Assembly: GCF_900102315.1 (NCBI RefSeq)
Contig: NZ_FNBL01000001.1
Coordinates: 124,001-188,000, forward strand
Length of the DNA: 64,000 bases
Direction of reading: 5' to 3'
Source: Celeribacter baekdonensis
GTDB taxonomy: Bacteria > Pseudomonadota > Alphaproteobacteria > Rhodobacterales > Rhodobacteraceae
Part shown: positions 57,051 to 57,804 of the stretch, one piece after another
Layout: each line of letters starts with the position of its first letter
Position numbering within the stretch: position 1 is the stretch's first letter
Program-made: the position numbers and the translations under genes
Notes under the pieces: generated by a model
Told to the model about the DNA's origin: nothing
The model's input: only the letters and a program-made list of their open reading frames with translations
Database searches by the model: none

Positions 57051-57286
57051 ACCCAATGTTCCCCTTAGATGCGTGATTCTCTCAAGGTTTAGGAGAAACA
57101 CCTGACGTTTCAAAGCCGTATGATAAAGCGGCACAGTAAAAACCCAAGACAAACCCAAGGCAAACCCAAGACAGGGTCTCGTTGAGCCACCACGCCTTTA
57201 TCTGACACACACTCTGTCACGCAGAGTTTTCACTCAAACCGGTCTCAGGTTTAAGGAAACGCGCTTTAGAACAATACAATTTTAAC
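57051..57286. other. Upstream part of a gene-free stretch
   Basis: No credible coding frame. Contains a TACAAT box at 57275-57280 that would serve as -10 element for the small-RNA candidate starting near 57287, and the promoter region of the HerA-like gene on the minus strand. Confidence 0.4.
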
Positions 57287-57400
57287 CTCTTGCTGCCAGT
57301 CTCTCCTGTATTCGAACCCTGTCCTCTTCGGTTCGAATTGACTTCCTCCCTGTCAGACTGGCCGCCCGGGGTGCGCTTTTGCCCCGGTGCGGCCTCTTTT
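57287..57400 (+). ncRNA. Candidate small RNA with anti-Shine-Dalgarno motif
   Basis: Within a 750-bp gene-free stretch. -10-like TACAAT at 57275-57280; then hairpin 1 (ATTCGAACC with GGTTCGAAT, about 57310-57339), a single-stranded CTTCCTCCCTG at about 57342-57352, and a very strong terminator: GGCCGC-CCGGGG pairs with CCCCGG-(T)-GCGGCC (57360-57394), tail TCTTTT. No protein-coding frame explains this terminator. C/U-rich CCUCC motifs in or beside loops are typical of alphaproteobacterial sRNAs. The 5' end is a guess. Confidence 0.5.
57360..57400 (+). terminator. Strong orphan terminator
   Basis: Twelve base pairs (with one bulged T) and a TCTTTT tail; no upstream protein gene on this strand for more than 2 kb (rlmJ ends at 55355). 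Supports the presence of a non-coding transcript. Confidence 0.75.
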
Positions 57401-57439
57401 CTGTCAGGCCGCTCTGTCAGGTCGCTCTGTCAGGTCGCA
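57401..57439. repeat. Three tandem 13-bp repeats
   Basis: CTGTCAGGCCGCT, CTGTCAGGTCGCT and CTGTCAGGTCGCA lie end to end directly after the sRNA terminator. A degenerate fourth copy, CTGTCAGACTGGC, lies at 57350-57362 just before it. Confidence 0.75.
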
Positions 57440-57538
57440 AAATCAGAGCCCTCTCCCCGAAATCGGCCGGAATGGGCGGATCACATCCCTGTGAAAATTC
57501 TCGTTGACGAGGCCGATTCTCTGTCATACCGTTGTCGC

Positions 57539-57630
57539 AATAAGTCGGCCAAGTCCGACAGGGAGTGATAAGATCGCGAGATCTCTGGATCAAAAGATCA
57601 CAAAAGCCTCGGTTTTGCCGAGGCTTTTGT
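57539..57630 (+). ncRNA. Second candidate small RNA or leader
   Basis: TTGACG at 57504-57509 and TACCGT at 57527-57532 with a 17-bp spacer make a sigma-70-like promoter. The transcript would end at CAAAAGCCTCGG (57601-57612) paired with CCGAGGCTTTTG (57618-57629), a 12-bp perfect stem with TTTTG tail. The region contains small dyads (GTCGG/CCGAC; GATCGCGAGATC). No ORF. It may be a sRNA or an attenuated leader of the IalB-like gene, which starts 175 nt later. Confidence 0.4.
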
Positions 57631-57804
57631 TTTGACCAGTCTGCCCGGTTGTCTGCCCCGGGTGTCTGCCAGATGTATCTGCGGAATTCCGCCGCCCTGC
57701 GCATCCCTCCCCGGCTTCACGCGAATTTTTGCCAATCCCGCCTGACAGCCCCTCAGCGACGTGTTAAAGCAGGGGCGAATTTGCAAACAACATATGGACA
57801 GATA

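Follow-up and report, generated by a model that had tools for sequence, protein, structure and literature searches.

Two predicted adjacent small RNA genes in Celeribacter baekdonensis: an anti-Shine-Dalgarno sRNA and its probable sponge

What is encoded between the HerA-type ATPase gene and ialB of Celeribacter baekdonensis? The interval occupies positions 57051-57804 of the window, which is the whole 64,000-nt stretch of DNA that was analyzed. An earlier note on this DNA had proposed two small RNAs there, with an exposed anti-Shine-Dalgarno segment. The elements that it named are all present. They are two terminator-like hairpins (57360-57394 with a T-rich tail, and 57600-57630), TACAAT (57275-57280), a 9-bp hairpin (57310-57338), CTTCCTCCC (57342-57350), TTGACG-17-TACCGT (57504-57532), and three 13-mers (57401-57439). 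The interval very likely holds two adjacent sRNA genes, as judged from the kept position, the promoter sequence, the terminators, and a covarying 5' stem. In the best reading, to which we assign a probability of roughly 70%, the genes are separately transcribed, and sRNA2 is a predicted sponge of the anti-Shine-Dalgarno sRNA1 and probably of its siblings. It would work like CrfA of Caulobacter but is encoded beside one target. The features are as follows.

57050 (taken as the start codon), minus strand: HerA-type ATPase gene (PF05872), from Pfam
57051-57804: sRNA interval between the HerA-type ATPase gene and ialB
57271-57302, plus strand: putative promoter or activator block of sRNA1, with ACAATAC (57271-57277), TTAACC (57282-57287), and TG-N-CAGTCT (57294-57302)
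57309-57402, plus strand: sRNA1, anti-Shine-Dalgarno sRNA (SorX/SorY/alphaR8-like), from fold and conservation, ends inferred
57310-57338, plus strand: 5' hairpin of sRNA1, 9 bp, from covariation
57342-57364, plus strand: pairing core of sRNA1, CTTCCTCCCTGTCAGACTGGCCG, near invariant in 161 full-length copies
57360-57402, plus strand: terminator hairpin and T-rich tail of sRNA1, from fold and covariation alignment
57504-57532, plus strand: sRNA2 promoter TTGACG-17-TACCGT (TTGACG 57504-57509, TACCGT 57527-57532), from conservation
57538-57633, plus strand: sRNA2, predicted sponge RNA, from fold and conservation, ends inferred
57544-57565, plus strand: pairing core of sRNA2, GTCGGCCAAGTCCGACAGGGAG, a hairpin with a Shine-Dalgarno-like tail, complementary to 57342-57364
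57600-57633, plus strand: terminator of sRNA2, from scan and fold
57805 (taken as the start), plus strand: ialB (PF06776), from Pfam

Gene arrangement, conservation, folds, complementarity, and promoter and terminator conservation were computed. The interval contains two plus-strand units (sRNA1, approximately 57309-57402; sRNA2, approximately 57538-57633). Pfam, searched to E 0.1, gave no match for the two ORFs of more than 90 aa that lie wholly within it (92 and 95 aa). The stretch read upstream of ialB gave one sub-threshold Pfam match (16 bits against a cut-off of 27). In the 24 copies read, no start codon was seen kept at a fixed distance 3' of the AGGGAG tail of sRNA2. With no such start codon and no Pfam match to the inner ORFs, the reading of sRNA2 as coding was dropped. 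Just 5' of ialB, a promoter-like CTGACA...TGTTAAA (57742-57768) is conserved in most of 25 aligned regions.

In sRNA1, the covarying 5' hairpin is followed by an exposed CUUCCUCCCUGUCAGAC and then by the terminator. Its fold was better than those of all 200 dinucleotide shuffles (z -5.63). Among 24 aligned sequences, 7 of the 9 pairs of the 5' hairpin show changes on both sides that keep the pair, and over all consensus pairs of sRNA1 the count is 10 of 15. Six consensus pairs of the terminator are kept in 22 to 24 of the 24 sequences. The core pattern occurs in 198/295 family genomes; some siblings elsewhere in the genome also fit it, so this count is a maximum. The three 13-bp repeats that the earlier note had pointed out are present at 57401-57439, but even the two closest relatives retain them poorly. 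They resemble part of the sRNA1 core (CTGTCAG..CCGC).

A conserved block lies 5' of sRNA1 (57271-57302). It reads ACAATAC-N4-TTAACC-N6-TGCCAGTCT in the window, and the upstream consensus over 210 loci is A..ATACa.t.TTAACc.tt...tGCcAg..T. TTAAC is found in the 105-nt upstream stretch at 180 of the 210 loci, mostly 58-70 nt 5' of CTCCCTG. The TACAAT that had been taken for a -10-like box does fall inside this block; the likelier -10 would be CAGTCT (57297-57302), which is preceded by TG. The start site and the regulator of sRNA1 are assigned presumptively. TTAACC resembles a CtrA half site, which would tie sRNA1 to the cell cycle.

The promoter of sRNA2 is strongly conserved; it is followed by the core GUCGGCCAAGUCCGACAGGGAG, made up of a hairpin and a Shine-Dalgarno-like tail, and by a terminator. 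Its fold was better than those of all 200 dinucleotide shuffles (z -4.85). The TTGACG-17-TACCGT promoter, already proposed from the window, proved strongly conserved in sequence across loci, with TTGAC in 208/210 and, in 200 of these, TANNNT after a 17-nt spacer. The terminator has 13 pairs and a 5-nt loop in the scan, where it is listed on the minus strand, and a 14-bp stem in the plus-strand fold. The core pattern was found in 230/295 family genomes. A looser pattern, run over 289 genomes sampled across the class, gave 11 matches: 3 among the 4 family members and 8 among the 285 other genomes. Those 8 have off-core letters, and none contains the full GTCGGCC...GTCCGAC core. Small GATC-rich hairpins lie between the sRNA2 core and terminator (57566-57598) in the window and close relatives; this spacer is much shorter in several other genera. 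The terminator scan of the region gave no excess (4 sites versus 2.7 ± 1.8 expected), and the sigma-70 promoter scan of the region gave no site. The main support for both sRNAs is conservation, not these scans.

The earlier note had set conservation in relatives as a test that could refute its proposal. Conservation was found, and the proposal stands. A DNA search matched the region in 25/61 genomes, its own included, mostly from the same genus. The ATPase gene is present at 25/25 matched loci, and ialB as well at 24/25. The sRNA1 core is present in 24/25 matching intergenic regions, the sRNA2 core in 24/25, and both in 23/25. A scan of named genomes with the sRNA2 core alone found at least 119 loci, at least 102 of them with the ATPase gene. 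The 102 ATPase-linked loci listed comprise 51 from Roseobacteraceae, 42 from Paracoccaceae, 8 with no assigned family, and one titled Maritalea (Devosiaceae). Among the matches listed, 82/102 ATPase-linked loci have CTCCCTG of sRNA1 within 420 nt upstream of sRNA2, and 20/102 do not. Three loci without it (L204, L224, and L259) have apparent degenerate copies. The same scan also matched a few actinobacterial and other records that lack the locus, among the matches listed. The record titled Maritalea mobilis (Devosiaceae; L191) has the HerA-sRNA1-sRNA2-ialB locus, which elsewhere was seen in Rhodobacterales, and its name may be wrong.

The key feature that the earlier note did not contain is the complementarity of the two cores. 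With it, the pair is better read as an sRNA with its probable sponge than simply as two sRNAs. The sRNA1 core CUUCCUCCCUGUCAGACUGGCCG can pair almost perfectly with GUCGGCC(A)AGUCCGACAGGGAG, the sRNA2 core. The core-core duplex in the window is -34.8 kcal/mol. For the whole RNAs, net binding is -14.1 kcal/mol, versus -4.1 ± 2.3 with a shuffled partner, and 0/100 shuffles were as good. In a control, sRNA1 paired with itself gave -7.3 versus -2.6 ± 1.8 for shuffles (best shuffle -12.3), which is somewhat better but within the shuffle range. In the window's own genus, sRNA2 has an extra A, bulged in the duplex with sRNA1.

Core pairs were looked for at 244 loci in three partly overlapping sets. 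They were found at 210 (178 distinct core pairs) and were absent from 34, which include chance actinobacterial matches. The best duplex is -28 kcal/mol or better at 208/210 loci, and the weakest is -19.5. Among the matches listed, a duplex of -30 kcal/mol or better is formed with upstream DNA at 80/102 ATPase-linked loci, versus 4/102 with shuffled upstream DNA. Over 111 loci among the matches listed, the best duplex averages -33.8 with upstream, -24.4 with downstream, and -24.3 with shuffled DNA. In 125 aligned pairs free of length variants, all but one of the 18 positions show standard pairing at 115-125 loci. The remaining position is central, is paired in 18/125, and is where sRNA1 varies most over its 161 full-length copies. 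Core constancy is partly built in, because the search patterns themselves fixed or limited several of the other core positions. Two sRNA2 positions were left free by the scan, and both face U in sRNA1. The base before GGGA is G in 56 cases and A in 55, never C or T, and the loop base is a purine in 90/97, among the matches listed.

A reading as an inverted repeat only was dropped, because each core has a separate terminator and strong conservation extends to the promoter of sRNA2. The two genes could also encode unrelated sRNAs that match by chance, anti-Shine-Dalgarno to Shine-Dalgarno-like, and never meet in the cell. A match to a Shine-Dalgarno site by itself accounts for some 6-8 bp, and partners swapped between genomes bind almost as well (cognate pairs, -35.78; swaps, -35.62 ± 0.065, with 0/20 shuffles reaching the cognate value). 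The small advantage of cognate pairs reflects the near invariance of both cores. The complementarity, however, runs to approximately 19 nt and takes in the hairpin beyond the Shine-Dalgarno part. The free positions vary between A and G opposite U, and the mismatched column is the variable one. We consider a chance match quite improbable. AAG of sRNA2 accompanies CTTG of sRNA1 at 11/14 loci, versus 17/172 other loci, which is a compensatory association. A tree check had 2 pairs on supported branches and was underpowered for independence.

An Rfam search, proposed earlier as a check, found nothing in the region at gathering threshold. Below threshold, sRNA2 matched AbsR25 (31.8 bits, gathering 47, E 0.0019), and SpF25 and Phe_leader were also matched in the region. 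All three were set aside, as the alignments appear to rest mainly on the sRNA2 terminator. sRNA1 shares its layout and a CUCCCUG...GAC..GGCC string with SorX (RF02784) and SorY (RF02651) of R. sphaeroides. Its SorX score is 21.5 bits in the window and 39.1 in an orthologue (L020), below the gathering score of 46.6. For SorY (gathering 111), no match was listed in the window up to E 5, and an orthologue (L019) scored 29.5 bits. All recognized copies of sRNA1 are below the SorX and SorY gathering scores. Published work places SorX 3' of an OmpR-type regulator and describes SorY as limiting malate import. The transporters named as targets are a TRAP transporter for SorY and a spermidine transporter for SorX. 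sRNA1 differs from SorX in being flanked by the HerA-type ATPase gene and ialB. Against alphaR8 (mmgR, suhB, RF00519), sRNA1 scored 14.2 bits in the window and 27.4 in an orthologue (L019), below the gathering score of 41. PMC12559287 defines alphaR8 by a 10-nt single-stranded UUUCCUCCCU downstream of a hairpin, followed by a terminator. CUUCCUCCCU of sRNA1 matches UUUCCUCCCU at 9/10 bases and lies in the hairpin-terminator linker. In contrast to alphaR8/mmgR, the genes flanking sRNA1 are not for N-formylglutamate amidohydrolase.

The earlier note had also mentioned CcsR/cuckoo RNAs. These have CCUCCUCCC in hairpin loops, and they occur as tandem copies downstream of ccaF1, which we take to be a DUF1127 gene. 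They come from the same bacterial group and share a C/U-rich anti-Shine-Dalgarno motif with sRNA1. sRNA1, in contrast, lacks CCUCCUCCC, has its motif CUUCCUCCC in the hairpin-terminator linker, and is present as a single copy in the interval. Its flanking genes are for the HerA-type ATPase and ialB, with no DUF1127 gene. Membership in this family was rejected and is hardly credible. A known sRNA-sRNA pair of this bacterial group is StsR-UpsM of Rhodobacter sphaeroides, in which StsR, an sRNA that targets another sRNA, binds UpsM in the mraZ leader. sRNA2 could be the orthologue of StsR, being of similar size (StsR has 72 nt, and some sRNA2 copies look about that long) and likewise predicted to pair with an sRNA. 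The sRNA2 core, however, paired no better with DNA 100-800 nt upstream of a matched MraZ domain than with shuffled DNA (-25.9 versus -25.8 at 16 same-genus loci, in an indirect test by complementarity). We set this orthology aside as very doubtful.

The sponge reading extends to siblings of sRNA1. The SorX/SorY-type sibling core CCTCCCTGTTGGACY is found in 272/295 family genomes, a count that takes in some sRNA1 copies and can include one site twice. Further family sRNAs with the core CCUCCCUGUUGGAC occupy up to four distinct sites per genome (G301), among the matches listed. In genome G021, a SorX match scoring 89.9 bits sits 3' of an OmpR-type regulator, the position reported for SorX. The window's own genome has a SorY-like sibling (G000:C15:517579; 72 bits, gathering 111) that is also near mmgR/alphaR8 (38.5 bits, gathering 41) and lies downstream of a LysR-type gene. 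Net binding of sRNA2 to this sibling is -23.4 kcal/mol, versus -8.4 ± 3.1 for shuffles, with 0/100 as good, and is better than its binding to sRNA1 (-14.1). sRNA1 and the SorY-like RNA gave no binding signal (-1.0). sRNA2 is likely a sponge for sRNA1 and its siblings, going by these pairings.

One candidate target of sRNA1 is the start region of a TRAP-transporter DctP-type solute-binding gene (PF03480), where AUGACAGGGAGGAAACCCAUG matches the core. A search of the own genome for sRNA1-matching sites found 5 besides sRNA1 itself, one of them this start region, versus 6 for the reversed control, which is no excess, and the TRAP match is therefore a lead only. Of 37 genomes searched, 24, the own one among them, have GGGAG at their best TRAP locus, in the upstream 40 nt or, for alignments that began inside the gene, in the aligned stretch. 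The mean duplex there is -22.2 versus -12.8 for shuffles. GGGAG before this gene is an ordinary ribosome-binding site. Tandem DctP-type solute-binding genes (L311 and L336, G000:C15:489596-491919) lie on the same contig as the SorY-like sRNA, approximately 26 kb from it.

The closest parallel is in Caulobacter crescentus, where PMC12559287 reports from RIL-seq, probing, and mutants that CrfA sponges four alphaR8 siblings, SisA-D. SisA represses many mRNAs there, likely via its anti-Shine-Dalgarno core (PMC12559287). As described there, CrfA is a G/A-rich stem-loop sRNA that pairs with the CCUCCCU core of siblings sharing a hairpin, an anti-Shine-Dalgarno core, and a terminator, and sRNA2 resembles it in this. 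Extended pairing with the seed of sibling sRNAs, the mark of a CrfA-like sponge, was found by computation for sRNA2. The likeness is by description; unlike CrfA, sRNA2 has its core approximately 100-400 nt downstream of the core of one target and complementarity of approximately 19 nt. QrrX of Vibrio, one sponge for the Qrr sibling family (PMC12559287), is also like sRNA2 by description in having several siblings per sponge, in a different organism. The main text of PMC12559287 does not mention SorX or SorY.

sRNA2 has a near-perfect antisense copy of the active part of sRNA1 and therefore probably soaks up sRNA1 and its relatives. In the mechanism that we infer, both genes would be transcribed, Hfq may be involved, and there would be an inducing condition. 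The exposed UUCCUCCCUGUC of sRNA1 would pair with ribosome-binding sites, in the manner of SorY and SisA. The AGGGAG tail of sRNA2 would mimic a Shine-Dalgarno site, serve as a decoy, and nucleate on CUCCCU. Pairing would then spread into the GUCGG/CCGAC hairpin to give a duplex of approximately 19 bp, which may block or destabilize sRNA1. sRNA2 fits the shared sibling core CCUCCCUGUUGGAC and therefore probably titrates the whole SorX/SorY-like set.

The pairing could have another outcome, in which sRNA1 sponges or decays sRNA2, or the two are degraded together, and sRNA2 has targets of its own. The complementarity is symmetrical, and in Caulobacter CrfA is also lowered by SisA (PMC12559287). 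sRNA2 also persists at the 20/102 listed loci with no CTCCCTG upstream, which SorX/SorY-like siblings could explain. sRNA1, however, is built like anti-Shine-Dalgarno sRNAs whose targets are mRNAs, such as SisA (PMC12559287), and AGGGAG of sRNA2 is unsuited to pairing with ribosome-binding sites. We regard these reversed roles as rather unlikely and prefer sRNA2 as the sponge.

Sponges of anti-Shine-Dalgarno sRNAs are a known kind; the adjacent target, the long duplex, and the family-wide conservation make this one a variant. Among the titles and abstract openings listed in searches of the open-licence PMC literature, none reports that SorX/SorY-type RNAs of this group have a sponge. Published sRNA lists may already include the sRNA1 or sRNA2 transcript. 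We would give even odds to a broader reading, in which sRNA2 is a master sponge across Rhodobacteraceae/Roseobacteraceae and determines how much of each SorX/SorY/alphaR8-type sRNA in the cell is free. Transporter and photooxidative-stress control would then be gated by one sigma-70-like promoter, and the sponge would have been kept beside one target over the history of the family.

SorX and SorY have so far been treated as separate stress sRNAs of R. sphaeroides, and alphaR8 sRNAs elsewhere as carbon regulators. If the sponge reading is true, these sRNAs would share one antagonist, conserved across a large bacterial group with marine and photosynthetic members, and their regulation as described so far would be incomplete. 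Sponging of alphaR8-type sRNAs would extend to a second order besides that of Caulobacter. With sponge and target in one segment of approximately 350 nt, the locus would be a ready test bed.
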